Shown here: positions 5,716-47,435 of the stretch, in pieces
Layout: the number at the start of each line of letters is the position of its first letter
Numbering within the stretch: position 1 is the first letter of the stretch
Made by a program: the position numbers and the translations under genes
Notes under the pieces: model-generated
Databases searched by the model: none
Told to the model about the DNA's origin: nothing
Seen by the model: the letters and a program-made list of their open reading frames with translations, nothing else
Origin: Catellatospora coxensis
GTDB lineage: Bacteria; Actinomycetota; Actinomycetes; Mycobacteriales; Micromonosporaceae
Reading direction: 5' to 3'
DNA: 55,130 bases
NCBI RefSeq assembly: GCF_016862635.1
Contig: NZ_BONI01000065.1
Span: forward strand, 1 to 55,130

Positions 5716-5776
5716 GTTGATCATGAACTTATGGCACGGTTCGACGGCGTGTCGCCGCCCTAACTTCATGATCAAC
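5716..5776 (+). repeat. Family A GATC inverted repeat, copy 1
   Basis: A 61-bp element with perfect 12-bp ends (GTTGATCATGAA / TTCATGATCAAC) around the core GGTTCGACGGCGTGTCG. It lies just 3' of trpA. Six further copies occur at 6241, 8659, 8745, 36395, 36946 and 40581. This copy is called forward (+); copy 2 faces it across a small gene. Confidence 0.9.
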
Positions 5777-5821
5777 TCGAGCGGGTGGGGCGTGACGGCG
5801 CGCGGGGACGGACACGGCGGA

Positions 5822-5859
5822 TTCCGGTAGCTGCCAGGATGACCTGGCGGCTACCGGAA
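5822..5859 (+). promoter_or_regulatory. Long hairpin covering the ribosome binding site of the next gene
   Basis: Two 17-base arms (5822-5838 and 5843-5859) pair fully apart from one G-U wobble, with loop ATGA. The 3' arm ends in CCGGAA and the following bases complete GGAAGAG, the only good ribosome binding site for the TTG at 5868. Folding would therefore hide part of that site in RNA. It could equally be a terminator-like repeat. Confidence 0.6.
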
Positions 5860-5867
5860 GAGTCGCG

Positions 5868-6224
5868 TTGTCCCGTTCTGTCCGGCATCTCTCCGCGAAT
5901 CACCAGCGGATGAATCCCGCCACAGCACCGGCACTGCGGGTGGCGGAGCTGTGCGACCTGCGATACAGCCGGGCCTGCCTGCGTGCTGCCCACAGGCAGG
6001 GTCGTCGGCCGCGGCCGCAGCGCCTGCGGCACCGGGTGGAGGTCCACCGCTGGGCGCGCCGGCGGCCCGGTGACGCCGACGCCGGCCGCTTCGCCCGCGA
6101 GGCCGAGCGCAGAGCCCGCCGGCGCCTGCACCGCGCCCTCCGTGCGGCCGTACGCGACCCGCACGCCCCCGGCCTCGACATCCCGCCGTACCACCACCGC
6201 CACGGCGCCCACTGGCTCGTCTGA
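5868..6224 (+). CDS. Hypothetical Arg-rich protein between two family A repeats
   Basis: No family was recognised. The frame encodes 118 residues from a TTG at 5868, which has GGAAGAG five bases upstream; an ATG at 5910 would give 104 residues but has no ribosome binding site. The protein is very basic (about one residue in four is Arg) and ends in IPPYHHRHGAHWLV. Third codon positions are almost all G or C, as expected of a real gene here. The gene lies between facing copies of the 58-61 bp family A repeat and directly behind a hairpin that overlaps its ribosome binding site. A nucleic-acid-binding role is a guess from charge only. Confidence 0.55.
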   Translation: MSRSVRHLSANHQRMNPATAPALRVAELCDLRYSRACLRAAHRQGRRPRPQRLRHRVEVHRWARRRPGDADAGRFAREAERRARRRLHRALRAAVRDPHAPGLDIPPYHHRHGAHWLV

Positions 6225-6240
6225 CCGGAATCCGTCAGAT

Positions 6241-6298
6241 CGATCATGAAGTTAGGGCGGCGACACGCCGTCGAACCGCGCCATAAGTTCATGATCAG
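6241..6298 (-). repeat. Family A GATC inverted repeat, copy 2
   Basis: Reverse-oriented copy, facing copy 1 (5716) across the Arg-rich gene. Its ends are CGATCATGAAG and CTTCATGATC-type sequence and the core reads GACACGCCGTCGAACC. It lies 62 bases upstream of lgt. Confidence 0.9.
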
Positions 6299-6360
6299 CC
6301 AAAATGAGGGGACCGGCGGGGGTGTGGAGTTGGGGGGTGGGGGCGGTAGGGTTCTGGCTC

Positions 6361-7419
6361 GTGAACCTCGCCTCCATCCCGTCCCCGTCCACGGCGGTCT
6401 GGCAACTCGGACCCGTGCCGCTGCGGGCGTACGCGCTGTGCATCATCGCGGGCATCGTGCTCGCCTGCATCGTCACCGACCGGCGGATGCGCAGCCGGGG
6501 CGCCCCGCCGTGGGCCGTGCTCGACATCGCCGTGTGGGCGGTGCCGTTCGGCATCGTCGGCGCCCGCATCTACCACGTGCTCAGCTCGCCCGACGCGTAC
6601 TTCGGTGAGGGCGGCGACCTGGTCAAGGCGCTCTACATCTGGGAGGGCGGCCTCGGCATCTGGGGCGGCGTCGCGGGTGGCGCGCTCGGCGCCTGGCTGG
6701 CCTGCCGCCAGCTCGGCATGTCGTTCAGCTTCGTGGCCGACACCATCGCCGTCGGCCTGCCGCTGGCGCAGGCCGTTGGCCGGCTCGGCAACTGGTTCAA
6801 CAACGAGCTGTACGGCGGCAAGACCGACCTGCCGTGGGGCCTGCAGGTGCACGTCATGTCCGACACCCAGCCGGGGCAGGCCATGCTCGGCCCGGACGGC
6901 GAGCCCGAGCTGCGTGAGGGCCTCTACCACCCGACGTTCCTGTACGAGCTGCTGTGGAACCTCGGCGTGGCCGGTGTCGTGTACGCCCTCGACAAGCGGT
7001 TCAAGTTCGGCCGCGGTCGCGCGTTCGCGCTGTACGTGATGCTGTACACCCTGGGCCGCGGTTGGATCGAGGCGATGCGCACCGACACCGCCACCATCAT
7101 CGGCGGCATGCGCCTCAACGTCTGGACCTCGATCATCGTGTTCCTGGCCGCGGCGGCGTTCTTCTTCCTCCGCCAGGGCCCGCAGGAGTTCCTGATCCCG
7201 AACGTCGACGCCGACGGCGAGCCCGTCAAGGGCTTCACCACCGTCACCGAGGCGCAGTACCAGGCCTTCCTGGCCGACGGCACCCGCCCCGAGGCCGCCG
7301 CCCCGGGCGATGGCGAGGACGGCGACAGCGCGCCGAAGGCCGTGACGGACGAGTTCGACGACCCCTCCGACGAGGGTTCCGACCTGTCCGCGCAGAAGAC
7401 CTCCTCGACGAAGGACTGA
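6361..7419 (+). CDS. lgt: Prolipoprotein diacylglyceryl transferase
   Basis: Lgt transfers a diacylglyceryl group from phosphatidylglycerol to the lipobox cysteine of prelipoproteins at the membrane; several such lipoproteins are encoded in this window. The 352-residue product has seven likely membrane helices and the family signature GRLGNWFNNELYG (from residue 140), preceded by the H-containing GARIYHVLSS region. An acidic C-terminal tail of about 70 residues (rich in D, E, A) extends beyond the catalytic fold, as is common in actinobacteria. The GTG at 6361 follows TAGGGT (6347-6352) by eight bases, suggesting a leaderless transcript. The position after the trp genes is typical of actinobacteria. 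Confidence 0.96.
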   Translation: MNLASIPSPSTAVWQLGPVPLRAYALCIIAGIVLACIVTDRRMRSRGAPPWAVLDIAVWAVPFGIVGARIYHVLSSPDAYFGEGGDLVKALYIWEGGLGIWGGVAGGALGAWLACRQLGMSFSFVADTIAVGLPLAQAVGRLGNWFNNELYGGKTDLPWGLQVHVMSDTQPGQAMLGPDGEPELREGLYHPTFLYELLWNLGVAGVVYALDKRFKFGRGRAFALYVMLYTLGRGWIEAMRTDTATIIGGMRLNVWTSIIVFLAAAAFFFLRQGPQEFLIPNVDADGEPVKGFTTVTEAQYQAFLADGTRPEAAAPGDGEDGDSAPKAVTDEFDDPSDEGSDLSAQKTSSTKD

Positions 7420-7422
7420 GCG

Positions 7423-8619
7423 ATGCGCAGCGCGGTGGTGGTCGGTGCGGGCGTCGGCGGCCTCGCCACGGCGGGGGCGCTCGCGCGCACCGGCTGGCGG
7501 GTCACCCTGCTGGAGCGGGCGGACCGGCTACGCGCCGACCCCGCCGCGCTGCTGCTGTGGCCCAACGCCGTCGCCGCGTTGCGCTCCCTCGGGCTCGGCG
7601 GCGGCCTGGCCGCCATCGCGACCCCCGTCCCGTCCGGCGGGCTGCGCCGGGCCGACGGGCAGTACCTCGCCCAGCCGACGCCCGGCACCGCGCAGGCTGT
7701 GGTCGTACACGCCGAGGACCTGCACGACACGTTCATCGCCGGGCTCGGCGACCAGATCGAGATCCGCACCGGCATCACCGTGCGCAGCATGCACGCCCGC
7801 CCCGGGGACCGGCCCGCGGTCGGCGACGGCCGGCACACGTGGGAGGCCGACGTCATCGTCGCCGCCGACGGGGCCGACAGCACGCTGCGGGCCCGGCTCG
7901 CGCCGCAGTCGATCGCGGTCAGCTCCGGCTACGCCGCCTGGCGCGCGGTCATCCCCTGGTATCGCGCCCCGAAGCTGCCCGACGACCTGGTGCTGGCCGG
8001 GGAGACGCTGGGCGGCGGCTACCGCTTCCTGGCCGCCTCGCTCGGCGACCGGGGCAGCTCCGGCGCGTCCAGCCGGGGCGGCATCTACTGGACCGCCACC
8101 GTCGCCGGGGCGGCCCGCCCCGAGTCGAAGGCCACCCAGCTGACGCTGCTCAAGCGCTGGTTCGCCGGCTGGCACGCCCCGATCGCGGACCTGCTGGCCG
8201 CGACCGAGCCCGACGACCTGGTGCAGCAGGACGGCCGCCAGCTGCGCCCGCTGCCCAACGAGCTGGCCTTCCCGGTCGGCACCGGCGGCTTCGCGCTGGT
8301 CGGCGACGCCGCCCACGCCATGCCGCACCACCTCGCCCAGGGCGCCGGGCTGGCCCTGGAGGACGCGGCCACGCTGCGTGCCCTGCTGCACCCGGCGATC
8401 CCCGGGCCGGGCTGCAACGCCGCGCTCGCCGCGTACTCCGCCGCCCGCCGCTCGCGCGCGGCCCAGGTGGTCCGCCAGACCCAGCGCGTCGGCGCGGTGC
8501 TCGCCCCGCGCGGCAACCTGGTCACCCGCGCCCGCGACCGCGCCTTCGGCACCCTCGCCCCCCGCGTCCTCGACCGCGCCGCCTCGGTCGCCGCCGACTG
8601 GCAACCCCCCACCACCTGA
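7423..8619 (+). CDS. FAD-dependent monooxygenase (salicylate hydroxylase-like)
   Basis: The 398-residue product is a class A flavoprotein monooxygenase. It begins with the FAD-binding Rossmann motif VVVGAGVGGLATAGAL, has the middle DG motif (VIVAADGADSTLR, about residues 142-154) and the second FAD motif in ALVGDAAHAMPHHLAQGAG (about 289-307). Such enzymes hydroxylate aromatic or polycyclic substrates with NAD(P)H and oxygen. It starts 3 bases after lgt with AGGA in the lgt end serving as ribosome binding site, so the two are probably cotranscribed. The substrate is not evident; link to Lgt is probably only positional. Confidence 0.88.
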   Translation: MRSAVVVGAGVGGLATAGALARTGWRVTLLERADRLRADPAALLLWPNAVAALRSLGLGGGLAAIATPVPSGGLRRADGQYLAQPTPGTAQAVVVHAEDLHDTFIAGLGDQIEIRTGITVRSMHARPGDRPAVGDGRHTWEADVIVAADGADSTLRARLAPQSIAVSSGYAAWRAVIPWYRAPKLPDDLVLAGETLGGGYRFLAASLGDRGSSGASSRGGIYWTATVAGAARPESKATQLTLLKRWFAGWHAPIADLLAATEPDDLVQQDGRQLRPLPNELAFPVGTGGFALVGDAAHAMPHHLAQGAGLALEDAATLRALLHPAIPGPGCNAALAAYSAARRSRAAQVVRQTQRVGAVLAPRGNLVTRARDRAFGTLAPRVLDRAASVAADWQPPTT

Positions 8620-8658
8620 CCAACCCCGCACCCCGCCCCCGCCGCAGCGCTTCACCGC

Positions 8659-8718
8659 GTTGATCATGAACTTATGGCACGGCTCAGCGGCGTGTCATGC
8701 CCACAACATCATGATCAC
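8659..8718 (+). repeat. Family A GATC inverted repeat, copy 3
   Basis: Forward copy behind the monooxygenase gene, somewhat diverged (GGCTCAGCGGCGTGTCATG core; right end ACATCATGATCACC). It faces copy 4 at a distance of only 26 bp between convergent genes. Confidence 0.88.
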
Positions 8719-8744
8719 CTAGCCGGGCGTCAGTGGGCTGGCAT

Positions 8745-8803
8745 CGATCATGAAGTTGGGCCCGCGACACGCCGTCGAACCGTGCCATAAGTTCATGATC
8801 AAC
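8745..8803 (-). repeat. Family A GATC inverted repeat, copy 4
   Basis: Reverse copy facing copy 3. Together they form a 145-bp inverted structure between the ends of the converging monooxygenase and MscS-like genes, which suits a bidirectional transcript end. Confidence 0.9.
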
Positions 8804-8848
8804 GCGTGGGAAGCCTGGCCGGCCGGGGCGACGGTGGGCGGGTTGCGG

Positions 8849-9700
8849 TCAGAGTTCGGGGCCCTGCATGTCCTTGCGGAGCGCGGTGGCCTTCTCGGTG
8901 AGTTTGTCGGCGGCTTCCTTGGCCGTCGGTTTGACGTCGGAGGGCTTCTCGCCGGGGTACTTGGCCTGGACCATGGTGTCGCCGCGGTCCTTGGACAGGG
9001 CGGCGGTCCGGGCGGCGCGCTGCTCGGCGGCGCGGGTCTTGAGGTGCTCGGAGACGCGGGTGCCCTCTTCCTCGACCTTGTTCAGGGCGCGTTCCCAGCG
9101 TTCCCGCATGGGGGCGATCAGGCCGCCGCCGACGCCGACGATGAGGATGCCCGCGATGGTGGCGAGGACGGCGACCAGCACCGGCATGGTGATGGTGGTG
9201 GCGACGCCGATCTGGTTGAGCGCGGCGATCACGCCGAACGCGATGATCGCGACCTGCGCTATGCGGCCGACGGCGCGGCCGTACGAGAAGTGCGACAGCG
9301 CGTTGGTGATCACGTCGAACACGGCGTTGGCGATGGCCACGGCGACCACCAGGATCACGCAGGCCACGATCAGCCTCGGCAGCCAGGCGATCACGTCGTC
9401 GATCAGGTTGCTGATCGGGTTGGGCCCGAACACGCTGAACGCGAGCTGGAACGTGAACAGCAGCAGCGCGTAGTAGACGAGTTTGCCGACCAGGCCGCTG
9501 GGCGTGTACCTGCCGGTCCACCGGTCCATGCCCGTGCGCTGCGCGAGGTGGTTGAACCTGGCCCGGGCCAGGCCCTTGTCGACCAGGCTGCCGATCGCCT
9601 TGGCGATGATCCAGCCGACGACCAGGATGGCGGCGCAGGCGAGCACCTTGAGGGCGATGTACGCCAGCGCGCTGAGCAGGACCTGCACGGTCGGATTCAC
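8849..9700 (-). CDS. MscS-like / CmpX-type membrane protein
   Basis: The 283-residue protein resembles the small 'conserved TM helix' group related to mechanosensitive channels. About five hydrophobic helices are visible: residues 10-32, 72-90, 105-130, 145-165 and 170-195. Glycine-rich turns (GWIIAKAIGSLVDKGL, ILIVGVGGGLIAPM) are typical of these repeats. A charged cytoplasmic tail of about 85 residues (MRERWERALNKVEEEG onward) is probably helical and contains the Lys-rich end. The GTG start has GGAAGGTGG seven bases upstream. A role in osmotic stress release is inferred from the family; it lacks an obvious full MscS beta domain, so channel activity is uncertain. Confidence 0.8.
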   Translation of the reverse strand: MNPTVQVLLSALAYIALKVLACAAILVVGWIIAKAIGSLVDKGLARARFNHLAQRTGMDRWTGRYTPSGLVGKLVYYALLLFTFQLAFSVFGPNPISNLIDDVIAWLPRLIVACVILVVAVAIANAVFDVITNALSHFSYGRAVGRIAQVAIIAFGVIAALNQIGVATTITMPVLVAVLATIAGILIVGVGGGLIAPMRERWERALNKVEEEGTRVSEHLKTRAAEQRAARTAALSKDRGDTMVQAKYPGEKPSDVKPTAKEAADKLTEKATALRKDMQGPEL

Positions 9701-10427
9701 GGTCGTCCACCTTCCGCCGGAGCGGAGCCGGCGCCGCCTGTCGCCGTGGCCGGCGGCGGGCGAGGGCCGTGCCCCGCGTGAGCGGCCCGCGGCAGCGGAC
9801 CTTCAGCCGCAGACTAAGGCCGTCAACTGCGGATATCGGCTGAATATCGAAAATGCCGCCGCACCGCACGATCGCAGAGCCGTGCCGCGCGGGCGGGGCC
9901 GTGCCGGTTCGCGCCGCACGGGTGTCGCCCGGATCCGGCGGCGACAAGCATCGCCGATGAAGGTGTGTACGGGCGTCGATGTGTCGGCGGCGCGGGCGCG
10001 GTGCGCGGCGACGATCCCGAGACGCGCCGTTAACCTCCGCGACGCGCCCGACATGCGCGGGAAACGCGCATGCCACGGGCCTGATCTCACCCTCGGGCAG
10101 GTGTCCCGCCGACTCGCGGCTACTTACTAACTGGGAAGTAGCTTCCCATCATTTGGACGTGTGATCAATCTGTGTCTGGTGGACACCCAGGGCGTTTAAC
10201 GTAGACTCAACACTCACAGACTCGTCCCCATGCTCGTGCGACCGCGCGAGGGAGTCCGTGTACCGCTGAACCTGCGGGTTCATTCAAGGGCCGACGTCGT
10301 CCCGCTCGGATAGGCACCGCTAACGAACCCGGCATAGCCCCCGCGCCATCGCTGTCGCGGCATCCAGGCATCCCACCCCGTTCGTGGCCGATACCGAAGT
10401 TCATTCCCCGTGACGACAGGAGGCCCG
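9701..10427 (+). promoter_or_regulatory. Long intergenic control region of gltB
   Basis: These 727 bases between divergent genes contain no convincing gene. The gltB side holds a 17-bp palindrome TGGGAAGTAGCTTCCCA (10132-10148), a smaller inverted repeat GTGTC/GACAC (10173-10187) lying on the promoter, a likely -35 TGGACA (10180-10185) and -10 TAGACT (10202-10207) with 16-bp spacing. Transcription from there would leave a leader of about 210 bases before gltB, long enough for an RNA control element, although no known riboswitch was recognised. The left 400 bases show nothing clear. Confidence 0.55.
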
Positions 10428-13400
10428 GTGGCATCGCCGTACCCGCACCCCCTGCAGCCTGGTAGTACGGCCGCTACGGCCGCGACGCAGCCTGGTATGA
10501 CCACCGCGCCCGGCGCGGTCGGTCTCTACGACCCGGCCTTCGAGCACGACTCCTGCGGCGTGGCCTTCGTCGCCGACGTGCACGGCCGCCGCAGCCATAA
10601 CGTGGTGGCCCGCGGCCTGTCCGCGCTGTGCCGCCTGGACCACCGCGGCGCGCGCGGCGCCGAGACCACCACCGGCGACGGCGCGGGCATCCTGATCCAG
10701 GTCCCGGACGCCTTCCTGCGCGAGGCGGTCGACTTCCCGCTGCCGCCCGCCGGCCAGTACGTGACGGGCCTGGTCTTCCTGCCGGTCAACGGCGCCGACG
10801 AGGCCCGCGCGCTGACCGTGCTGGAGAAGTACGCCCTGGTGGAGGGCGCGCAGATCCTCGGCTGGCGCGACGTGCCGGTGGACGCCGAAGGGCTGGGCGC
10901 GACCGCCGACGCCGCGCGCCCGCGCATCCGGCAGGTGTTCCTGAGCGCGCACAGCATCTCCGGCCCCCGCTACGGCGAGCCGCTCGGCGGCCTGGAGCTG
11001 GAGCGCGTGGCCTACTGCGTGCGCAAGCAGACCGAGCGGGAGAGCCGCGAGCGCGGCGTGCCGCTGTACTTCCCGTCGCTGTCCGGCCGGACGATCACCT
11101 ACAAGGGCATGCTCACGCCCGACCAGCTGGCGTCGTTCTTCCCGGACCTGTCCGACGAGCGCGTGGTCAGCGCGATCGCGCTGGTGCACTCGCGGTTCTC
11201 CACGAACACGTTCCCGAGCTGGCCGCTGGCCCACCCGTACCGCTTCATCGCGCACAACGGCGAGATCAACACGATCCGGGGCAACAAGAACTGGATGCAG
11301 GCCCGCGAGGCGCTGCTGGCCAGCCCGCTGCTGCCGGGCAACCTGCGCCGGCTGTTCCCGATCTGCACGCCGGAGGCGTCGGACTCGGCGAACTTCGACG
11401 AGGTGCTGGAGCTGCTGCACCTGGCCGGGCGCAGCCTGCCGCACGCGGTGCTGATGATGATCCCCGAGGCGTGGGAGAACGACCCGGTGATGGACCCCGC
11501 GAAGCGGGCGTTCTACCAGTTCCACGCCAGCCTGATGGAGCCGTGGGACGGCCCGGCCAGCGTCGCCTTCACCGACGGCACGGTCGTCGGCGCGGTCCTC
11601 GACCGCAACGGCCTGCGCCCGGGGCGCTGGTGGCGCACCGAGGACGGACTGGTCGTGCTGGGCAGCGAGGCGGGCATGCTCGACCTCGACCCGGCGACCG
11701 TGGTGGCCAAGGGCCGCCTGGAGCCGGGCCGGATGTTCCTGGTCGACACCGAGCGAGGCCGGGTCGTCTCCGACGAGGAGATCAAGGGCGAACTCGCGGC
11801 CGAGCAGCCGTACGCCGACTGGCTGCACGGCGGGCTGATGCACCTGGAGGGGCTGCCCGAGCGCGAGCACATCGTCTACACCCACGACTCGGTGCAGCGC
11901 CGCCAGCAGACCTTCGGCTACTCCGAGGAGGAGCTGAAGATCCTGCTCGCGCCGATGGCGCGGGCCGGGGCGGAGCCGCTGGGCTCGATGGGCACCGACA
12001 CGCCGATCTCGCCGCTGTCGAGCCGGCCGCGGCTGCTCTACGACTACTTCCATCAGATCTTCGCGCAGGTCACCAACCCGCCGCTGGACGCGATCCGGGA
12101 GGAGATGGTCACCAGCCTGGCGTCGACCATCGGCCCGGAGAGCAACCTGCTGGACCCGGGCCCGACCAGCTGCCGGCAGATCGTGCTGCCGCATCCGGTG
12201 ATCGACAACGACGAGTTGGCCAAGATCCTGTCGATCGACGAGGACGGCGACCTGCCCGGCTTCAAGGCGGTGCGGGTCTCCGGCCTGTACCCGCTGCGCG
12301 ACGGCGCGACCGGCCTGCGGGCCCGGCTGACCGAGATCCGCCGGCACGTGTCCGAGGCGATCGAGGACGGCGTGCGCATCCTGGTGCTGTCGGACCGGGA
12401 CTCCACCGCCGACCTGGCCCCGATCCCGTCCCTGCTGCTGACCGCGGCGGTGCACCAGCACCTGGTGCGGGAGCAGACGCGCACCCAGGTGGCGCTGGTC
12501 GTCGAGTCCGGCGACTGCCGCGAGGTGCACCACGCCGCGGTGCTGGTCGGCTTCGGCGCGGCCGCGGTCAACCCGTACCTGGCCTTCGAGAGCGTCGAGG
12601 ACCTGATCACCACCGGCATCCTGCCGAACATCACGCCCGAGAAGGCCGTGCGCAACGTCGTCAAGGCGCTGGGCAAGGGCATCCAGAAGATCATGTCGAA
12701 GATGGGCATCTCGACCGTGTCGTCGTACTGCGGCGCGCAGGTGTTCGAGGCGGTCGGCCTGTCGTCCGAGCTGGTGGAGCGCTACTTCACCGGCACGCCC
12801 AGCCGCATCCAGGGCATCGGCCTGGCCGAGATCCACGCCGAGGTCGCGGCGCGGCACGCGGTGGCGTACCCGACGAACCCGGCGGAGCAGTCGCACCGGC
12901 GGCTGGAGGTCGGCGGCGAGTACCAGTGGCGCCGCGAGGGCGAGGTGCACCTGTTCAACCCGGAGACGGTGTTCCTGCTCCAGCACGCCACCCGCTCCGG
13001 CCAGTACGACGTGTTCCAGCGCTACACCGAGAAGGTCGACGGCCTGGCGGCCGCGGCCGGCTCGCTGCGCGGGCTGTTCCGGTTCAAGGACGCGACCCCG
13101 ATCCCGATCGAGGAGGTCGAGCCCGCGACGGAGATCGTCAAGCGGTTCGCCACCGGCGCGATGTCGTACGGCTCCATCTCGGCCGAGGCGCACGAGACCC
13201 TGGCCATCGCCATGAACCGGATCGGCGGCAAGTCGAACACCGGTGAGGGCGGCGAGGACGTCGAGCGCCTGTACGACCCGGCCCGCCGCTCGGCGGTCAA
13301 GCAGGTGGCCTCCGGCCGCTTCGGCGTGACCACGGAGTACCTGGTCCACGCCGACGACATCCAGATCAAGATGGCGCAGGGCGCGAAGCCCGGCGAGGGC

Positions 13401-16511: not shown

Positions 16512-16560
16512 AAGGAAGGGCACCTTCACAACGCTCCGCGTTGTAGAAGGTGCCCTTCTT
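16512..16560. terminator. Bidirectional hairpin, family D copy 1
   Basis: Arms AAGGGCACCTTC and GAAGGTGCCCTT enclose a second stem AACGC/GCGTT. It sits between the converging gltD and 16580 genes, with TTCTTAT on the right side, and so can stop transcription from both. A second copy of the same arms lies at 46508. Confidence 0.8.
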
Positions 16561-23762: not shown

Positions 23763-23837
23763 CGGCGATCTTGCGTGAACTGTGGGTGCGACACGCCTGA
23801 AACGGGCAAAAGGTCAACAGTTCACGCAAGATCGTCG
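23763..23837. repeat. Family B GATC inverted repeat, copy 1
   Basis: Perfect 17-bp arms (23767-23783 and 23817-23833; GATCTTGCGTGAACTGT) enclose a 33-base core starting GGGTGCGACACGCC. It lies directly behind the thioesterase stop. Copy 2 is at 33501. The core shares CGACACGCC with family A. Confidence 0.88.
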
Positions 23838-23913
23838 TGATCATGGGTGGAGTGGGTCACGGGGTGGGGTTCGTTCGGGTGGGGGAGTGATCCGGGCGGG
23901 CGATAATCGGGGC

Positions 23914-33500: not shown

Positions 33501-33575
33501 CGACGATCTTGCGCGAACTGTGGGTACGACACGGGCAGACGTCGCGAAAAGGCAACAGTTCGCGCAAGATCGTCG
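33501..33575. repeat. Family B GATC inverted repeat, copy 2
   Basis: Perfect 21-bp arms (33501-33521 and 33555-33575), which begin CGACGATCTTGCGCGAACTG, enclose a 33-base core starting GGGTACGACACG. Length and layout match copy 1 at 23763. Confidence 0.9.
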
Positions 33576-33673
33576 GGATCTTCGTGAAGGGCCGCGTCGG
33601 TGGGGATTTGGGGCGGGTGGTTGCTTGCTTTGGGTTACCGTGAATCATCACACGGTGCGCAAAGGGGATGGAC

Positions 33674-36394: not shown

Positions 36395-36455
36395 GTTGAT
36401 CATGAACCTATGGCACGGTTCGGCGGCGTGTCGTGGGCACAAGTTCATGATCGAC
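36395..36455 (+). repeat. Family A GATC inverted repeat, copy 5
   Basis: Forward copy directly after the ATPase gene: GTTGATCATGAACC at the left end, TTCATGATCGAC at the right, core GGTTCGGCGGCGTGTCG. It faces copy 6 across the PPOX-fold gene. Confidence 0.9.
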
Positions 36456-36945: not shown

Positions 36946-37004
36946 CGATCATGAAGTTGTGGCCGTGACACGCCGTCGAGCCGTGCCATAAGTTCATGAT
37001 CAAC
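36946..37004 (-). repeat. Family A GATC inverted repeat, copy 6
   Basis: Reverse copy, ends CGATCATGAAG and TTCATGATCAAC, core GACACGCCGTCGAGCC. It faces copy 5; a G-rich tandem repeat begins two bases after it. Confidence 0.9.
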
Positions 37005-37005
37005 G

Positions 37006-37050: not shown

Positions 37051-37118
37051 CGGGCGGGGGAGGCGGGGGTGAGGCGGCGCTGAGGGAGGGCGTCGGGGGG
37101 AGGGCATAAGCTCTTCGG

Positions 37119-39785: not shown

Positions 39786-39791
39786 TCGTCG

Positions 39792-39830
39792 CCAGGTGGC
39801 GGGGACGGGCCGTCCGGCCCCGCCACCTGG
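39792..39830 (+). terminator. Terminator hairpin after polA
   Basis: Perfect 13-bp arms CCAGGTGGCGGGG and CCCCGCCACCTGG with a further small inner stem, seven bases after the polA stop. There is no clear T-run. Confidence 0.75.
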
Positions 39831-39883
39831 GACGGCGGCGATGCGCGGATCGCGGCGCGGCAGGCTGAGCTAGGGTCACGATC

Positions 39884-40390: not shown

Positions 40391-40399
40391 CCCGCGTGT

Positions 40400-40468
40400 A
40401 GATAGACGTTGGCCTATCACGTCGAAAACGATCTACCCGGATTCGATGTGATAGGCCACCGTCTATGC
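40400..40468. repeat. Long inverted repeat, family G
   Basis: Arms of about 26 bases (ATAGACGTTGGCCTATCACG and its near complement) differ by two mismatches and one indel and enclose 17 bases. It follows gntK directly and is rich in A and T compared with its surroundings. Only one copy is in the window. Confidence 0.8.
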
Positions 40469-40580
40469 TGGCCGGCCTCCCGGCCTCCCGGTCGCACTGC
40501 GCCCGGCCCGCGCTCAGCCCCGCCCGGGCTCAGCCCCGCCCGCGCGTGACCGTCGCGCGTCGAGTCGTTGAACCCTGCGT

Positions 40581-40639
40581 CGATCATGAAGTTGTGGACA
40601 CGACACGCCGTCGAACCGTGCCATAAGTTCATGATCAAC
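40581..40639 (-). repeat. Family A GATC inverted repeat, copy 7
   Basis: Reverse copy, 17 bases after the stop of the subtilisin gene (which runs on the minus strand), so it lies 3' of that gene. No facing partner is present nearby. Confidence 0.9.
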
Positions 40640-40656
40640 GCGGGGGAGGGGAGGGG

Positions 40657-41865
40657 TCAGAGGGTTAGTTTGTTGAGGAGGCGGTTGGGGGTGCCGGAGA
40701 GGGAGCCGGTGACCACGTTGGGGGTGGCGTTGGTGACGATCCAGGAGTGAACCGTGGCCTGGCTGGCGTCGCCGTAGGTGGCCTTGTAGAGGGCGGCTAT
40801 GCCGGCGGCGTGCGGGGTGGACATCGAGGTGCCGTTCTTGCTGCCGGTGCCGCCGCCGGGCACCGTCGACACGATGCCCGAGCCGGGGCCGTACAGGTCG
40901 ACGCAGGAGCCGGTGGAGGAGTAGCTGGCGCGGGCGTCGGTGGAGGTGGTGGCCGCGACGACGAGCGACGCGGTCAGGTTGCGGGGCAGCCGGTCGCAGG
41001 AGTTGCCGCCGGTGTTGCCGGCCGAGGTGGCCAGGAAGACGCCCGCGTTCATCATGTTGGTCAGCGCCGTGGCCAGCGTCGAGCTGTACGTCATGTTCCA
41101 CGAGGTGTTGGCGACGGCCGGCTTGACGTGGTTGGTGCGCACCCAGTTGACCGCGGCGACGGCCGATGAGGTGGTGCCGCTGCCGGCGCAGTTGAGCCAC
41201 TTCACGCCGTGCAGCCGTACGGCCTTGGCCACGCCGTACGAGGTGGAGCCGATGGTGCCGGCCACGTGCGTGCCATGGCTGTTGCAGTCGGTGTTGTTGC
41301 TGTCGATCGAGTTGTAGTCGAACGACGCCCGGGTGCCGAAGTTCGGGTGGGACGCGTCGATGCCCGAGTCGATGATGTACGCGTGCACGCCCGCGCCCGT
41401 CGCGGTGTACGTGTAGCTCGCCGACAGCGGCAGCGCGCTCTGGTCGATGCGGTCGATGCCCCACGCGGGCGGGTTGCTCTGCGTGGTGTCGAGCACGTTG
41501 TGGTGCCAGGCGTCGCGCTCGATGGCCAGCACGTCGGCGCTGTGCGACAGCTCGCGCACCTGGGCGGCGCTCAGCTCGGCGGCGAAGCCGTTGACGGTGG
41601 TCCCGAAGTCGACGCGGGCGGTGGTGTGCAGCGCCCGCAGGGCGACCCCGCGGTCCGCGCCCGCGCGGAAGGTGACCAGGTAGGCGCCCGGGATGACGGT
41701 GACGTCCGGGCCGGCGGCGGGGGCGGTGATCGGGACCGGGATCGCCCGGTAGGGCGCGCCGGCGGCGAGCGCGGGTGACGGCAGGGCCACGACGGTGGCC
41801 AGGGCGGTGGCGGTGATCGCGGTGGACGCCAGTAGGCGGGCACGCCAGGACCGGTTGGTTGGCAC
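40657..41865 (-). CDS. Secreted subtilisin-like serine protease
   Basis: The 402-residue preproprotein has a signal peptide (about 1-35, ending ALPSPALAAG), an inhibitor I9-like propeptide (about 57-120, VIPGAYLVTFRAG) and an S8 catalytic domain. The triad is Asp166 in YIIDSGID, His197 in NSHGTHVAG and Ser347 in NGTSMSTPHAAG; Asn284 in SAGNTGGN forms the oxyanion hole. Paired cysteines (C194/C226, C290/C321) suggest disulfides, as in proteinase K-type enzymes. The GTG start has GGGGAGGAAG upstream. The promoter region holds an AT-rich stretch with palindrome TTACAGTAA (41935-41943). It is probably an extracellular scavenging protease. Confidence 0.94.
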   Translation of the reverse strand: MPTNRSWRARLLASTAITATALATVVALPSPALAAGAPYRAIPVPITAPAAGPDVTVIPGAYLVTFRAGADRGVALRALHTTARVDFGTTVNGFAAELSAAQVRELSHSADVLAIERDAWHHNVLDTTQSNPPAWGIDRIDQSALPLSASYTYTATGAGVHAYIIDSGIDASHPNFGTRASFDYNSIDSNNTDCNSHGTHVAGTIGSTSYGVAKAVRLHGVKWLNCAGSGTTSSAVAAVNWVRTNHVKPAVANTSWNMTYSSTLATALTNMMNAGVFLATSAGNTGGNSCDRLPRNLTASLVVAATTSTDARASYSSTGSCVDLYGPGSGIVSTVPGGGTGSKNGTSMSTPHAAGIAALYKATYGDASQATVHSWIVTNATPNVVTGSLSGTPNRLLNKLTL

Positions 41866-41960
41866 GTCTTCCTCCCCAATACCAGGCGCCGCCCTGTTTG
41901 GACGGCGGCTGGCTCGGAGAGTACATAGATATTGTTACAGTAATCAATGTCTGGGGCACG

Positions 41961-41995
41961 AAAAGAGGGCGCCGCCCCGGTGTGGGGCGGCGCCC
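41961..41995 (-). terminator. Terminator of the amino acid permease gene
   Basis: Perfect 12-bp arms GGGCGCCGCCCC / GGGGCGGCGCCC with a 5-base loop, followed on the minus strand by CTCTTTTCG. It is 13 bases after the permease stop: a classic intrinsic terminator. Confidence 0.85.
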
Positions 41996-42007
41996 GGTGC
42001 CACGGAC

Positions 42008-43528
42008 TCACTCGACGTTGGGCCCCTTGTAGGGGTCCGTGCCCTCGTAGGTCTTCGCGTGCTCCCGGTCGTAGCGGATGCCGGGCCGTTCGCGGCTGTG
42101 GTGGTAGCTGTAGATGAAGTAGATGATGAAGCCGAGCAGCATCCAGACCGCGAACCGGACCCAGGTGTCGACGGGCAGGTTGAGCATCAGCCACAGGCTC
42201 GCCAGCGCGGCCAGGATCGGCAACACCGGCACCCACGGCACCCGGAACGGGCGCGGCAGGTCGGGACGGGTCTTGCGTAGCACGATCACGCCGAGCGCGA
42301 CCACGAAGAAGGCGAACAGCGTGCCGATGCTGACCAGCTCGGAGAGCTTCTCCAGCGGGATGAACGCGGCCAGCAGGGCGATGACGACGCCGACCCCGAT
42401 GGTGATCAGGTACGGCGTGCCGTAGGTGCGGTGCACCTTGGCCATGCCGATCGGCAGCAGGCCGTCGCGGGACATCGCGAACAGCACGCGCACCTGGCCG
42501 AGCAGCAGCACCAGCACCACGGTGGTGATGCCGCAGATCGCGCCGAGCGAGATCAGCTTGGCCACCCAGGGCTGGCCGACCACGTCGAACGCGTGCGCCA
42601 GCGGCGCGTCGACGGCCAGCTGCGTGTAGTGCACCATGCCGGTGATGACCAGCGAGACCAGCACGTAGAGCAGGGTGCAGATGACCAGCGAGCCGATGAT
42701 GCCGCGCGGCATGTCCCGTTGCGGGTTGCGCACCTCCTCGGCGGTGGTGGCCACGATGTCGAAGCCGATGTAGGCGAAGAAGACGATCGCCGCGGCGGCC
42801 AGGATGCCCGGGATGCCGAAGTGCACCGGTTCGATGCCGAGCAGCAGCTGGGACAGCGGGGTGTGCCACACCGAGGCGCCGGTCTGCGCGGTCGGCTCGG
42901 CCGGCGGGATGAACGGCTTGTAGTTGGCGAACTTGATGAAGAAGGCGCCCACCACGATCACCAGCAGCACCACGGCCACCTTGATCGCGACCAGTACGCC
43001 GGAGACCCGGCTCGACAGCTTGGTGCCCAGCACGCCCAGGAAGGTGCAGACCGCCACGATGAAGATCGCCCCGAAGTCGGGTATCGCCTTCTCGCCGGCC
43101 ACCCAGGCGGGCAGGCTCAGCAGGTTCGCCAGGTACGCCGACCAGCCGCGGGCCACCACGGCCGCGCCCAGGCCGAGTTCGAGCACCAGGTCCCACCCGA
43201 TGATCCAGGCGACGATCTCGCCCAGGGTCGCGTAGGAGTAGGTGTACGCCGAACCGGCCACCGGCACGGTCGAGGCGAACTCGGCGTAGCAGAGCGCGGC
43301 CAGGCCGCAGACGATGCCGGCCACCACGAACGAGATCACGATCGCGGGACCGGCGTTGACGGCGGCCTGGCGGCCGGTCAGCACGAAGATGCCGGTACCG
43401 ATGATCACGGCGACGCCGAAGATGATCAGGTCGAGGGTGCTCAGGTTCTTCTTGAGTCTGTGTTCAGGCTCGATCGTCTCGGCCATCTCGGCTTCGACAC
43501 GCTTTGTCCTGAATATCCCTATCGCCAC
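42008..43528 (-). CDS. APC-family amino acid permease (cationic type)
   Basis: The 506-residue protein has about twelve hydrophobic helices. The start of helix 1, FGVAVIIGTGIFVLTG, and AALCYAEFASTVPVAGSAYTYSY are typical of the APC superfamily; the N-terminal FRTKRVE and PEHRLKKNLSTLDL match the cationic amino acid transporter group. The family imports basic or small neutral amino acids with protons. The GTG at 43528 keeps the family N terminus; an ATG at 43486 would cut it. The C-terminal tail (YDREHAKTYEGTDPY) is cytoplasmic. Between it and the next gene lies a family C repeat. Confidence 0.92.
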   Translation of the reverse strand: MAIGIFRTKRVEAEMAETIEPEHRLKKNLSTLDLIIFGVAVIIGTGIFVLTGRQAAVNAGPAIVISFVVAGIVCGLAALCYAEFASTVPVAGSAYTYSYATLGEIVAWIIGWDLVLELGLGAAVVARGWSAYLANLLSLPAWVAGEKAIPDFGAIFIVAVCTFLGVLGTKLSSRVSGVLVAIKVAVVLLVIVVGAFFIKFANYKPFIPPAEPTAQTGASVWHTPLSQLLLGIEPVHFGIPGILAAAAIVFFAYIGFDIVATTAEEVRNPQRDMPRGIIGSLVICTLLYVLVSLVITGMVHYTQLAVDAPLAHAFDVVGQPWVAKLISLGAICGITTVVLVLLLGQVRVLFAMSRDGLLPIGMAKVHRTYGTPYLITIGVGVVIALLAAFIPLEKLSELVSIGTLFAFFVVALGVIVLRKTRPDLPRPFRVPWVPVLPILAALASLWLMLNLPVDTWVRFAVWMLLGFIIYFIYSYHHSRERPGIRYDREHAKTYEGTDPYKGPNVE

Positions 43529-43644
43529 GCCCTGATCATCCGCCCGGCGTCACCGTTCGCGCGCGGTTTCGAGGAAAGTGCAATTGCACCGCCAGGCCGC
43601 ATCCCGGCCGTCCCCGCCGCAGGCGACCCGCAGCGCGCGCGCAA

Positions 43645-43706
43645 GATCGCCGTTTCCGGTCACGAAGTGGTGTTCAGACCACAGTTCTTGCCCGGAAACG
43701 GCGATC
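43645..43706. repeat. Family C GATC inverted repeat, copy 1
   Basis: Perfect 15-bp arms GATCGCCGTTTCCGG and CCGGAAACGGCGATC enclose 32 bases. It lies 50 bases after the methyltransferase stop (minus strand). Copy 2, at 46567, has different inner arms but the same layout. Confidence 0.85.
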
Positions 43707-43755
43707 ACGCATCGCGGCGGCGGAGGTGGCGTCGCCGGTGGCGGGACGGCGGTGC

Positions 43756-44619
43756 TCAGGCCGCGGGCTTGTCTGCCACGAAGACGGCCGTGCCGGGGAA
43801 CAGCCGGCCGCGCAGCGGGGACCACTGGCCCCAGATCTGCTCGTGGCCTGCGGGCCACTCCGGTTCGATCAGATCGATCAGCGTGAAGCCGGCCCCCAGC
43901 AGCTCGCGCAGCCGGTCGCCCATGGTGCGGTGGTGCTCGACGTAGGTCGCCGCGCCGCTCTCGTCGTACTCGACGTAGGGCCGGCGGTCGAAGTAGGAGT
44001 GCACCGCCCGCAGGCCGCCCTCGGTGGGGTCGTCGAGGAAGATCCAGCGCATCGGGTGGGTGACCGAGAAGGCCCAGCGCCCGCCCGGCTTGAGCACCCG
44101 GTGCACCTCGCGCATGACCAGGGCCGAGTCGTCGACGAACGGCACCGCGCCGAACGCGGTGCACACGACGTCGAAGGCCCCGTCGGCGAACGGCAGGGCA
44201 CAGGCGTCGGCCTGCACCAGCGGCACCGTGATGCCGGTACGCGCGGCGGCCTCGGCGGCGTGGCGCAGCATGCCCGCGGACAGGTCCATCGCCACCACGT
44301 CGGCGCCCTGGGCGGCCAGCCAGCGTGCCGCGGCGGCCGCGCCGCAGCCCAGCTCCAGCACCCGGCGCCCGGCGACGTCGCCGAGCAGCTTCGCGTCGGC
44401 CTCGCGCAGCCCCTCGGGGCACCAGACGAAGTCGGCCTCGCCCAGGAACTCGCCGTGCTCGGACTGATAGTTGTCGGCGTCGGCGTCCCACCAGCCGCGG
44501 GAGGCGCGCAGGTTCTCCGCGGCCGTGACCGGGCGGCGGGTCACGCCGGGGCCGGACTCGACGATCTCGAAGTCGCCGTCCGGGTCGAGGTCGTCGTCGC
44601 CGACGGGATGGATCTCCAC
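43756..44619 (-). CDS. Class I SAM-dependent methyltransferase
   Basis: The 287-residue protein has a complete methyltransferase core: motif I VLELGCGAAAAARWLAAQGA, motif II VVAMDLSAGML, LVQADACALPFADGAFDVV, and LKPGGRWAFSVTHP. About 85 residues precede the core (GWWDADADNYQSEHGEFLG, a lid often seen before this fold). The GTG at 44619 is chosen because TACGCT lies six bases before it (leaderless); the open frame continues upstream without a signal. Small-molecule methylation is likely, but the substrate is unknown. It is divergent from rpsA. Confidence 0.88.
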   Translation of the reverse strand: MEIHPVGDDDLDPDGDFEIVESGPGVTRRPVTAAENLRASRGWWDADADNYQSEHGEFLGEADFVWCPEGLREADAKLLGDVAGRRVLELGCGAAAAARWLAAQGADVVAMDLSAGMLRHAAEAAARTGITVPLVQADACALPFADGAFDVVCTAFGAVPFVDDSALVMREVHRVLKPGGRWAFSVTHPMRWIFLDDPTEGGLRAVHSYFDRRPYVEYDESGAATYVEHHRTMGDRLRELLGAGFTLIDLIEPEWPAGHEQIWGQWSPLRGRLFPGTAVFVADKPAA

Positions 44620-44744
44620 CCGGACAGCGTACGAGCCGGTCGGGCAGGGGCGGCGCACCTGGTGTGACGCAGAGAACAATTCGCCCGCAATCGCCTTGCA
44701 GTCCCCCGAATCAGGAAGAGGGGAGCGTCACGGGAGGGGTGGGG

Positions 44745-44775
44745 TTGCGTCGTGTGGTAATGGGCACGGTAAGCT
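44745..44775 (+). promoter_or_regulatory. Possible promoter of rpsA
   Basis: TTGCGT (44745-44750) and TAAGCT (44770-44775) are spaced by 19 bp, slightly long. The resulting leader to the ATG at 44919 would be about 135 bases. Confidence 0.35.
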
Positions 44776-44918
44776 GTTCGATGCACTCGCACGTCCGCGG
44801 TTCTCGGCATGGAGCAGACCCGTAGCGCGCCGGATCACCGGAGCGTAGGCGAGCGGGAGCGGCAGTGGAATACCCACTGGGTCACACTGAACATCCATCC
44901 GACGGAGCAACAGTCCAC

Positions 44919-46400
44919 ATGACGAGCAGCATCGAGGCCACCTCGAGCGCCAACAGGGTCACCATCGACGATCTCGGCTCTGAGGAGGCTTTCCTCGCCG
45001 CGATCGACGAGACCATCAAGTACTTCAACGACGGCGACATTGTCGAAGGCACCGTCGTCAAGGTCGACCGGGACGAGGTCCTGCTCGACATCGGCTACAA
45101 GACCGAGGGCGTCATCCCCTCGCGCGAGTTGTCGATCAAGCACGATGTGGACCCTGCTGAGGTCGTCTCCGTCGGAGATCACATCGAGGCCCTGGTCCTC
45201 CAGAAGGAGGACAAGGAGGGGCGTCTGATCCTCTCCAAGAAGCGCGCGCAGTACGAGCGTGCGTGGGGCACCATCGAGAAGATCAAGGAAGACGACGGCG
45301 TCGTCCGTGGCTCCGTCATCGAGGTCGTCAAGGGTGGCCTCATCCTCGACATCGGCCTGCGGGGCTTCCTGCCGGCCTCGCTCGTCGAGATGCGCCGCGT
45401 CCGCGACCTGCAGCCGTACGTCGGCCGTGAGCTCGAGGCGAAGATCATCGAGCTGGACAAGAACCGCAACAACGTGGTCCTGTCCCGCCGGGCCTACCTC
45501 GAGCAGACCCAGTCCGAGGTGCGCACCGAGTTCCTGAACAAGCTCCAGAAGGGCCAGGTCCGCAAGGGCGTCGTGTCCTCGATCGTCAACTTCGGCGCCT
45601 TCGTGGACCTGGGCGGCGTGGACGGTCTGGTGCACGTGTCGGAGCTGTCCTGGAAGCACATCGACCACCCGTCCGAGGTCGTCGAGGTCGGCACCGAGGT
45701 CGAGGTCGAGGTTCTCGACGTGGACCTGGACCGCGAGCGCGTCTCCCTGTCGCTGAAGGCGACCCAGGAGGACCCGTGGCGTCAGTTCGCCCGTACCCAC
45801 GCGATCACGCAGATCGTGCCGGGTAAGGTCACCAAGCTGGTGCCGTTCGGTGCGTTCGTCCGGGTCGAGGACGGCATCGAGGGCCTGGTGCACATCTCCG
45901 AGCTGGCCGAGCGCCACGTGGAGATCCCGGAGCAGGTCGTTCAGGTCGGCTCCGACGTGATGGTCAAGGTCATCGACATCGACCTCGAGCGTCGCCGCAT
46001 CTCGCTGTCGCTCAAGCAGGCCAACGAGGGCTTCGTCGAGGGCGAGGAGCACTTCGACCCGACGCTGTACGGCATGGCCGCCACGTACGACAACGAGGGC
46101 AACTACATCTACCCCGAGGGCTTCGACCCGGAGACGGGCGAGTGGCTCGAGGGCTACGAGAAGCAGCGCGAGATCTGGGAGCAGCAGTACGCTGACGCCC
46201 GCGCGCGCTGGGAGGCGCACACCAAGCAGGTCCAGACCTCGCGCGCGGCCGACGCTGCCGCCGCGTCGGAGGTCCCGACCGGCAACGTGTCGACCTCGAC
46301 CCCGGCCCCGGCCAAGGCGGCGGAGGAGCCCAGCGGCACCCTCGCCACCGACGAGGCCCTCGCCGCGCTGCGCGAGAAGCTGGCGGGCGGAAAGGCCTGA
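44919..46400 (+). CDS. rpsA: 30S ribosomal protein S1
   Basis: S1 helps place mRNA on the ribosome. The 493-residue protein contains four S1 RNA-binding domains (about residues 36-105, 121-190, 207-276 and 293-362); repeats such as GTVVKVDRDEVLLDIGYKTE, GSVIEVVKGGLILDIGLRGF, GVVSSIVNFGAFVDLGGVDG and GKVTKLVPFGAFVRVEDG are visible. The acidic N terminus and the C-terminal Ala/Glu-rich tail are typical of actinobacterial RpsA. The ATG at 44919 (MTSSIEAT) is the family start with CGGAG 11 bases upstream; an in-frame ATG at 44865 would add 18 residues. Confidence 0.97.
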   Translation: MTSSIEATSSANRVTIDDLGSEEAFLAAIDETIKYFNDGDIVEGTVVKVDRDEVLLDIGYKTEGVIPSRELSIKHDVDPAEVVSVGDHIEALVLQKEDKEGRLILSKKRAQYERAWGTIEKIKEDDGVVRGSVIEVVKGGLILDIGLRGFLPASLVEMRRVRDLQPYVGRELEAKIIELDKNRNNVVLSRRAYLEQTQSEVRTEFLNKLQKGQVRKGVVSSIVNFGAFVDLGGVDGLVHVSELSWKHIDHPSEVVEVGTEVEVEVLDVDLDRERVSLSLKATQEDPWRQFARTHAITQIVPGKVTKLVPFGAFVRVEDGIEGLVHISELAERHVEIPEQVVQVGSDVMVKVIDIDLERRRISLSLKQANEGFVEGEEHFDPTLYGMAATYDNEGNYIYPEGFDPETGEWLEGYEKQREIWEQQYADARARWEAHTKQVQTSRAADAAAASEVPTGNVSTSTPAPAKAAEEPSGTLATDEALAALREKLAGGKA

Positions 46401-46430
46401 GGTTCACCCCTCACGCCTTGAGTGACCCGA

Positions 46431-46472
46431 AGAGGGCGGCCCCCGACTCCACGGAGTCGGGGGCCGCCCTCT
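46431..46472 (+). terminator. Strong terminator after rpsA
   Basis: A 19-bp perfect stem (outer AGAGGGCGGCC, inner CCCGACTC) with a 4-base loop lies 30 bases after the rpsA stop. It is the first of three long hairpins before coaE. Confidence 0.88.
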
Positions 46473-46507
46473 TCGCATCTCCACCCCGCCCCGCTCCGCG
46501 AGGATGG

Positions 46508-46551
46508 GAAGGGCACCTTGCCATCGTTTTCCGTAGAGGAAGGTGCCCTTC
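46508..46551. repeat. Family D hairpin, copy 2
   Basis: Arms GAAGGGCACCTT and AAGGTGCCCTTC with a 20-base loop, followed by TTAAC. The same arms occur after gltD at 16512. Confidence 0.8.
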
Positions 46552-46566
46552 TTAACCTCGGGCTTG

Positions 46567-46646
46567 GCGAAGATCGCTGTTTTCGGGCCGAGGCTGCGGC
46601 TCGGCAGCGGATTCCTGACCGGCTGACCGGAAACAGCGATCTTCGC
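46567..46646. repeat. Family C GATC inverted repeat, copy 2
   Basis: Arms of 20 bases (GCGAAGATCGCTGTTTTCGG and its complement) with a single mismatch enclose 40 bases. GATC lies near the outer end of each arm, as in copy 1 at 43645. Confidence 0.85.
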
Positions 46647-46709
46647 GCGCCGCCGGGGGTGGAGCGGGCGGGCGCGCTGCGGGCGGGGCGGGCGTGCGAG
46701 CATGGGGCG

Positions 46710-47300
46710 GTGCGATGGGTGGGGCTGACCGGCGGGATCGGGTCCGGTAAGAGTGCGGTGGCGGCGCGGCTGGCCGAGCTGGGCGCGGTGGTGATCGACT
46801 CCGACCGGCTGGCCCGCGAGGCCGTCGCGCCCGGCACGGACGGGCTCGCCGAGGTGGTCGCCCGGTTCGGGGAGCAGGTGCTCGGCGCGGACGGCGCGCT
46901 GGACCGGCCGGCGCTCGGCAAGGTCGTGTTCGGCGACGAGACGGCCCGCCGCGACCTGGAGGCGATCATCCACCCGCGGGTACGGGCCCGCACGATGGAG
47001 CTGGCTGCCGCGGCGCCGCCCGACACGGTCGTCGTCAACGACGTGCCGCTGCTGATCGAGGCAGGACTGGCCGCGCAGTACGAGCTGGTCATCGTGGTCT
47101 TCGCCGACGAGGCGACCCGGGTGGCCCGGCTGGTGCGCGACCGGGGCATGACCGAGGACGAGGCGCGTGCCCGCATCGCGGCGCAGGCCACCGACGAGCA
47201 GCGGCGCGCCGCGGCCCACGTCGCGATCGTGAACGAGGGCACGCTGGCGGAACTGCACGCCGCCGTCGACGAGGTCTGGCACACGCGCCTGCGCCCCTGA
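46710..47300 (+). CDS. coaE: Dephospho-CoA kinase
   Basis: CoaE phosphorylates dephospho-CoA, the last step of coenzyme A synthesis. The 196-residue protein has the P-loop GLTGGIGSGKS (residues 5-15), VVIDSDRLAREAVAPG with the substrate-binding acid, IIHPRVRAR and VVNDVPLLIEAGL, all standard. The C terminus ends in a normal helix. The GTG at 46710 gives the family start VRWVGLTGG; GGGG precedes it. The gene is alone, 64 bases after a family C repeat, and no leaderless -10 box was seen. A long inverted repeat follows it. Confidence 0.95.
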   Translation: MRWVGLTGGIGSGKSAVAARLAELGAVVIDSDRLAREAVAPGTDGLAEVVARFGEQVLGADGALDRPALGKVVFGDETARRDLEAIIHPRVRARTMELAAAAPPDTVVVNDVPLLIEAGLAAQYELVIVVFADEATRVARLVRDRGMTEDEARARIAAQATDEQRRAAAHVAIVNEGTLAELHAAVDEVWHTRLRP

Positions 47301-47354
47301 CCCGCCTCCGGGCAGCGCCCGCCGGCGTTTCGCGCCGCGGCCCAGCGCGACGGG

Positions 47355-47435
47355 CATGATCGCCGGACTTGCCCGGCAGGTGGGCGAAAGCGCGGTCAAG
47401 ATACGCACAGGTGCCAGGCAAGTCGAGCGATCATG
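47355..47435. repeat. Family H GATC inverted repeat
   Basis: Arms of 24 bases starting CATGATCGCCGGACTTGCC pair with three mismatches and enclose 33 bases. It lies between the converging coaE and lipoprotein genes, so it can end both transcripts. Confidence 0.85.

Follow-up and report, generated by a model that had tools for sequence, protein, structure and literature searches.

GATC-framed hairpins in Catellatospora coxensis: turnover at orthologous sites and a possible origin as palindromic mobile repeats

The window analysed in this work is the whole stretch of 55,130 nucleotides, positions 1 to 55,130, of contig NZ_BONI01000065.1 (C65) of Catellatospora coxensis, whose genome (GCF_016862635.1) is a 9.35 Mb draft; the G+C content is approximately 71%. 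Forty-five genes were called in the window, and long hairpins lie in the gaps between them. The initial annotation had claimed that at least twelve of these intergenic inverted repeats carry GATC at both outer ends. All twelve were recovered with family profiles, each with GATC at both ends, and most of them rank among the 25 longest inverted repeats of the window (Table 1). The GATC-framed hairpins are 58–82 bp long and belong to the families A, B, C and H. Their turnover at orthologous sites is well supported, and they are best read as palindromic mobile repeats.

The four families are dispersed in the genome. A search of the C. coxensis genome gave at least 58, 56, 39 and 55 matches for A, B, C and H, respectively, where the best 40 of 112 A, 88 B, 67 C and 176 H candidates were scored and some copies are counted on both strands. 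At least 86 stretches of the genome collection contain an exact match to a 23-base string from family A, and the 80 loci among the matches listed are all from Catellatospora. In 455 kb of C. coxensis DNA the profiles found 40 A, 37 J, 33 H, 20 E, 15 C, 15 F, 13 B, 11 I and 7 D copies per Mb. When 343 hairpins, taken from 1.48 Mb of DNA that included 80 loci chosen for family A, were clustered de novo, 19 clusters with at least three members resulted, of which 12 were judged by eye to be dispersed and 7 to be single-site or spurious. Most members of the dispersed clusters A, B, C, D, H, K and N have GATC ends; the dispersed clusters E, F, I, J and M are without them.

The GATC foot is seen both with and without the profiles. 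GATC is located near both ends in most copies of A (171 of 176), B (65 of 66), C (90 of 91) and H (76 of 90), although these copies were found with profiles that themselves contain GATC. When no profile was used, GATC was the top of all 256 tetramers in the outer 14 nucleotides of both hairpin ends in C. coxensis (26 of 89 hairpins; the runner-up permutation of the bases G, A, T and C reached 10), in the congener G006 (18 of 40) and in G069, a genome of another genus (40 of 67); genomes are cited here by their numbers in the collection. It was low and not top-ranked in G007 (5 of 46) and G043 (2 of 19), and none of 28 hairpins in five further genera, sampled at 80 kb each, had GATC ends. In 400 kb of G069 (L384–L403), separate GATC-ended families, P1–P4, were found; the clusters have GATC in 18/19, 18/18, 3/4 and 3/3 members. 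The arms of these clusters are unlike those of the Catellatospora families; P1 has the outer 17 bases of B with another core. The tetramer ranking and the G069 clusters with other arms show that the GATC frame is real, that it is tied to lineages and that it depends little on the arms, but it is no rule for every hairpin. The view that the arms differ between families under one GATC frame is thus supported, and the arms were found to vary within families too.

It is extremely improbable that the shared GATC is the result of chance or base composition. Such an origin would fit the GATC background of 6.5 per kb and the 61 of 87 hairpins with an arm score of at least 14 in the 455 kb of C. coxensis DNA that lack GATC at both ends. 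The latter figure bears out in part the objection, raised in the initial annotation, that other long hairpins might have no GATC ends: GATC is not a general rule, but it is still the top tetramer. The first rank of GATC in three lineages, which do not include G007 and G043, and its absence from the small samples of five genera, whose GATC background is similar, argue against chance, and so does the covariation next to it. A base beside GATC covaries between the two sides (positions −1/+1 of C, 60 versus 41 expected; positions −2/+2 of B, 45 versus 28). The two bases just outside GATC are mostly A or T in C and H and on the left side of A; this is not seen at the inner GATC of B.

Comparison with the syntenic DNA of seven congeners revealed that the same site can hold the same element, none, or an element of another family. 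The site of B at 23763 is kept in five congeners though its flanks diverge; in G010, the alignment shows a C element inside an apparent degraded B, where the profile finds C only. The site of the A pair at 8659/8744 holds an A pair in G004, G005 and G010; in G002 it is occupied by C, in G001 and G006 by both B and C, and in G007 by E. At the site of C at 43643, C is present in G010 and J in G006, and no element is present in G002, G004 and G005. The J and C site at 46.5 kb is occupied by H in G002, G004 (a half copy), G005, G006 and G010. The site of H at 47355 contains B in G006, E in G007 and none in G002, G004, G005 and G010. The F site at 51877 contains F in G002, G005 and G010, C in G004 and, according to the alignment, another GATC hairpin in G006.

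Most of the elements in the close pair G001/G006 (37 in 220 kb and 41 in 229 kb) are orthologous, and orthologous elements are more alike than paralogs. The orthologs of A, B, C and H are also more alike than their 40-bp flanks (for B, 0.949 versus 0.77–0.79); those of J are not (0.827 versus 0.825–0.875). A 252-bp block of A, C and J after a stop codon is present in only one genome of the pair, and a C unit is doubled in the other. Near 83.5 kb of G001:C4, an unrelated long hairpin with the arms TTTGCTCTGCACACAAATACGC was seen by eye where G006 holds B. The presence and absence of elements, their nesting and the exchange of families at orthologous sites bear out the earlier suggestion of movement, and the copies are not always at the same orthologous places; constant places had been named as evidence against movement. 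An inversion of H copies between G001 and G006, hinted at by the strand calls, was rejected because the alignments show the same orientation.

Table 1. Hairpins of the repeat families in the window
Feature	Position	Strand	Remark
Family A hairpin	5716..5776	+	15 nt after the trpA stop codon
Family A hairpin	6240..6297	-	family profile
Family A hairpin	8659..8718	+	left member of convergent pair; pair also in G004, G005, G010
Family A hairpin	8744..8803	-	right member of the 8659/8744 pair
Family B hairpin	23763..23841	+	site shared with 5/7 congeners
Family B hairpin	33501..33579	+	present in C. coxensis only, against the 7 congeners compared
Family A hairpin	36395..36455	+	site shared with 6/7 congeners
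Family A hairpin	36946..37004	-	site shared with 6/7 congeners
Family A hairpin	40579..40639	-	family profile and inverted-repeat list
Family C hairpin	43643..43706	+	family profile, congener alignment
Family C hairpin	46567..46646 (profile match 46572-46643)	-	family profile, congener alignment
Family H hairpin	47355..47434	-	family profile, congener alignment
Family E hairpin, dispersed, without GATC ends (related kind)	40402..40467	-	
Family F hairpin, without GATC ends	51877..51941	+	
Family I hairpin, without GATC ends	54904..54947	-	
Family J hairpin, without GATC ends, occurs in several genera	16512..16560	+	
Family J hairpin, without GATC ends	46507..46553	+	

Elements also appear nested in one another. 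Inspection of G069 by eye showed a P4 in the loop of another P4 and a P3 within a P3; a P2 was seen to be split into two halves, with other hairpins lying between them and the 13-nucleotide CCGAATCTTG(G/A)GC on each half. Nested or split copies are located at L394:1960-2760, L397:4000-4200 and G069:C1:96651 and may show the insertion mechanism. Solo arms are rare. An arm was accompanied by its partner within 110 bp, at six substitutions or fewer, in 51/51 B, 40/40 P1, 56/57 H, 30/31 and 29/30 C, 54/60 A and 38/43 P2 cases, compared with 0–3 in displaced control windows; this test covered A, B, C, H, P1 and P2 in 1.94 Mb. The arm of F is itself palindromic. At four substitutions only 40 of 60 A arms were paired, since A arms are imperfect. 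Partial hits were similarly rare compared with full ones (A, 0 to 373; B, 0 to 130; C, 1 to 172; H, 2 to 148; J, 4 to 133), in a count that takes in overlapping loci as well as both strands and that diverged fragments escape.

Miniature inverted-repeat transposable elements (MITEs) such as Correia/NEMIS or RUP are intergenic inverted repeats of high copy number that can fold in RNA, like the hairpins described here. An origin as MITEs of a DDE transposon with terminal inverted repeats would account for the long inverted repeats, the shared end letters, the intergenic position and the copy number. It is nevertheless quite improbable. Solo arms, expected from an autonomous element, are rare in the 1.94 Mb, and no target-site duplication stands out in eight families (the highest z was 4.1 over thousands of settings for offset and length, with edges uncertain by a few bases). 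Unlike in Correia/NEMIS or RUP, no target duplication or partner transposon was seen, and nearly the whole unit is hairpin.

The families differ in their distribution among genomes. H is present in all 11 genomes of the genus and is marginal in one of 139 others. J is present in all 11 and in 13 genomes outside the genus. B is found in 8 of the 11 and was not found in G007–G009, but it occurs at full length in G069; short marginal matches to B were obtained in G029, G043 and G068.

The location of the elements relative to genes was assessed with gene positions from a codon-score gene finder after the removal of duplicate contexts. Median distances from the stop codon to the element are 19 (A), 23 (B), 30.5 (C), 25 (H) and 6.5 (J) nucleotides. 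In co-directional gaps, most copies of A (73 of 90), B (24 of 27), C (32 of 38) and H (44 of 50) occupy the stop-proximal half. Divergent gaps account for 35,144 of the 104,842 intergenic bases but contain few copies of A (8 of 165), B (1 of 64), C (5 of 88) and H (13 of 88). Among gaps of at least 60 bp, a known element occurs in 63 of the 113 convergent, 90 of the 372 co-directional and 13 of the 142 divergent ones. The elements are preceded by the C-rich, G-poor run-up typical of a Rho-type end: nucleotides 1–15 after the stop codon contain 56–58% C and 24–26% G ahead of an element and 38–47% C and 29–32% G without one, gene ends with an element nearer than 15 nucleotides being excluded. 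A, B and J follow the gene strand more often than not. The E, F, I and J hairpins of the window (at 16512, 40402, 46507, 51877 and 54904), which lack GATC ends, take the same 3′-end positions.

A stable hairpin behind the stop codon is a mark of intrinsic terminators and is found here; the predicted RNA folds of seven window copies are stable, with z from −5.5 to −8.2. The U-tract is mostly missing. At least three T in the next 8 nucleotides were counted in 18 of 189 A, 23 of 87 B, 19 of 97 C and 4 of 90 H copies, the per-genome tallies being lower bounds because duplicate contexts were removed. Among Rfam families, at gathering score, the window gave a tRNA only.

The stems of the hairpins are conserved relative to their unpaired bases. 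In 94 ortholog pairs, which are not independent and from which pairs below 72% identity were excluded, the change per base is 0.106 in stems and 0.216 in unpaired bases. Two-sided stem changes number 76 versus 28 expected, and the pair is retained in 42 of them. The arm change is therefore partly compensatory; template switching between the arms could be an alternative source of the paired changes. Arms also differ between lineages within a family. The H arms of the main clade are mostly ACTTGCC/GGCAAGT. In 15 of 18 fetched H copies from G007–G009, a G/C pair replaces the C/G pair of the main clade, and the core GCGTATCTTG is kept in most. These copies are the best hits to a query from the C. 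coxensis genome; two of four further G007 copies have the G/C pair, and C. coxensis DNA itself holds at least one such H copy. In family C, five of seven C. coxensis copies have arms ending in CGGTC, and 18 of 20 from G001 and G006 have arms ending in CGTGTC. Given these H arms of G007–G009, and the presence of family M and of few GATC ends in G007, the foot may have been gained or lost inside the genus.

These features have to be weighed against the possibility that the elements are transcript-end hairpins and nothing else, namely selected 3′ untranslated structures (Rho-type ends trimmed to a hairpin, or U-less terminators) copied by ordinary recombination only. We regard this as possible but the less probable explanation. 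It is consistent with the stop-proximal position and the preference for convergent over divergent gaps, with the run-up, the stable folds and the gene-strand tendency of A, B and J, and with stems that change at half the rate of unpaired bases. The available part of PMC8269248 describes 3′ ends that are structured but have no U-rich tract as a large class in Streptomyces clavuligerus, and the elements resemble such U-less or Rho-type ends with a protective stem-loop in having a stable GC-rich stem after genes and mostly no U-tract. In contrast to the hairpins studied here, those ends are not presented in that part as dispersed repeat families with a fixed foot. Near-identical unlinked copies, the lineage-bound foot, the nesting and the occurrence of B in a distant genus but not in G007–G009 are left unexplained by a transcript-end role alone. 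Furthermore, a separate terminator-like hairpin adjoins elements at two loci, as seen by eye. At 46428-46475 of the window, a terminator-like hairpin with a perfect 23-bp stem is kept in six aligned congeners, with mobile hairpins downstream of it.

It is improbable that the elements are architectural DNA sites for a nucleoid protein or topoisomerase, spread by selection. An AT-rich foot in a genome of 71% GC and the lack of orientation of C and H relative to genes would be in line with such a role, but the conserved cores, the oriented A and B families and the tight link to stop codons are not.

The initial annotation had suggested a test for a correlated transposase gene, for example one resembling the tyrosine transposases associated with repetitive extragenic palindromes (RAYT). 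A RAYT/Y1 transposase is not supported. The Y1 family PF01797 has no match in G001, G007, G008, G009 and G010, i.e. in 5 of the 11 genomes of the genus, and was not found in G069, G043 and G028 either, although a diverged HUH enzyme could escape PF01797. G001 and G010, both without a match, and G069 are rich in elements. The only Y1 match in C. coxensis, G000:C10:62235-62555 (L029), is broken by a stop codon. Judged by eye, the frame beside it is TnpB-like, and the match seems to be the first gene of an IS605-type element whose end hairpin is unrelated. Among the 45 called genes of the window, no mobility gene was detected near the elements in the 15 frames scanned against Pfam, three of which had no family match.

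In the available parts of PMC8266576 and PMC2817692, repetitive extragenic palindrome (REP) sequences and the bacterial interspersed mosaic elements (BIMEs) built from them are described as 20–50-nucleotide units with GTAG or a similar tetranucleotide before the hairpin and a cognate Y1/RAYT gene. The hairpins described here are, like them, extragenic, imperfect palindromes of high copy number with a foot tetranucleotide, family-specific arms and, in family A, inverted pairs. The A pairs are convergent, as in 8659/8744, and may simply serve two convergent genes. Unlike REP and BIME, the hairpins have GATC at both feet, a length of 58–82 bp and no RAYT that could be found. It is thus very improbable that they are REP sequences moved by RAYT (TnpA-REP), even though the extragenic palindromes, the BIME-like pairs and a conserved C-C mismatch in the A stem resemble that system: PF01797 was not found in several genomes that carry the elements, the C. 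coxensis copy is interrupted, the foot is not GTAG, and the unit is of another size. REP is the closest kind, but its defining features fail, and the elements are therefore classed as variant palindromic repeats and not as a REP family.

A further parallel is provided by the CGTC-tagged palindromic repeats (PMC3733652), whose families share a tetranucleotide and, according to the part of the paper available, have reportedly no dedicated transposase, so that orphan palindromic families are known elsewhere. There the tag is at one end and has other letters, and the size differs. The available main text of PMC3733652 contains no mention of Actinobacteria, Streptomyces, Frankia, Salinispora or GATC. 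In the open-licence literature, no paper on these Catellatospora repeats was found.

We propose, with a probability of roughly one half, that the elements are REP-like palindromic mobile repeats with a GATC foot that are moved by some undiscovered factor and kept as transcript-end hairpins. The turnover is observed; the enzyme, the insertion unit and the RNA role are inferred. Mobile repeats are favoured because of the turnover, the nesting, the patchy descent and the lineage-bound foot, and a function at transcript ends because of the position, the C-rich run-up and the stem conservation. The unit would be the hairpin of 58–82 bp: each arm has GATC at its foot, the arms may vary widely while remaining paired, and the core is family-specific. 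New copies would land mostly in the C-rich stretch just after a stop codon, where families may displace, join or enter one another at one site. A common hairpin-reading enzyme or a template-switching process would recognize the foot on folded DNA, and the host may benefit from elements that form or protect the 3′ ends of its mRNAs.

Several results weigh against this proposal. The search for a clean empty site between identical flanks gave none, as 0 of 632 element–genome comparisons passed the close-anchor filter, which leaves the insertion unit unproven. The 252-bp block and the doubling of C could equally be explained by deletion and ordinary recombination. An enzyme that moves the elements was not found in the searches described above, and two half copies of P2 and one of H exist. 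One-sided stem changes break the pair in 240 of 374 cases, and B is without any pair-keeping double change. Five of the 12 dispersed families occupy the same kind of position without GATC, and the foot may thus not be key. Finally, neither H nor C favours one strand relative to the genes, which makes an RNA role weaker for these two families. The earlier suggestion that the hairpins may be structured RNA 3′ ends is compatible with the location just after stop codons and the slower change of the stems.

If the arms change and a family still spreads, the recognized feature would be the shape together with a four-letter foot and not the sequence. A bolder version of the proposal, which we consider tentative, is a RAYT-independent copying of folded DNA hairpins that are marked by the GATC foot alone, with free arms. 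They would be inserted after stop codons or within the loops of existing hairpins, and transcript ends would thereby be built from exchangeable mobile hairpins in at least two genera with different arms. If true, this would point to an undiscovered enzyme or copying process in actinomycetes, with many mRNA 3′ ends derived from such hairpins.

Facing A copies approximately 1.1 kb apart (L145, L153, L180) were considered as possible carriers of genes. This was rejected, since the bracketed genes look ordinary by eye, one being dapB-like and one DUF559-like. In the window, the approximately 460 bp at 5777-6239 between two facing A elements contain no called gene, and the surrounding gap is shorter in five of the seven congeners.

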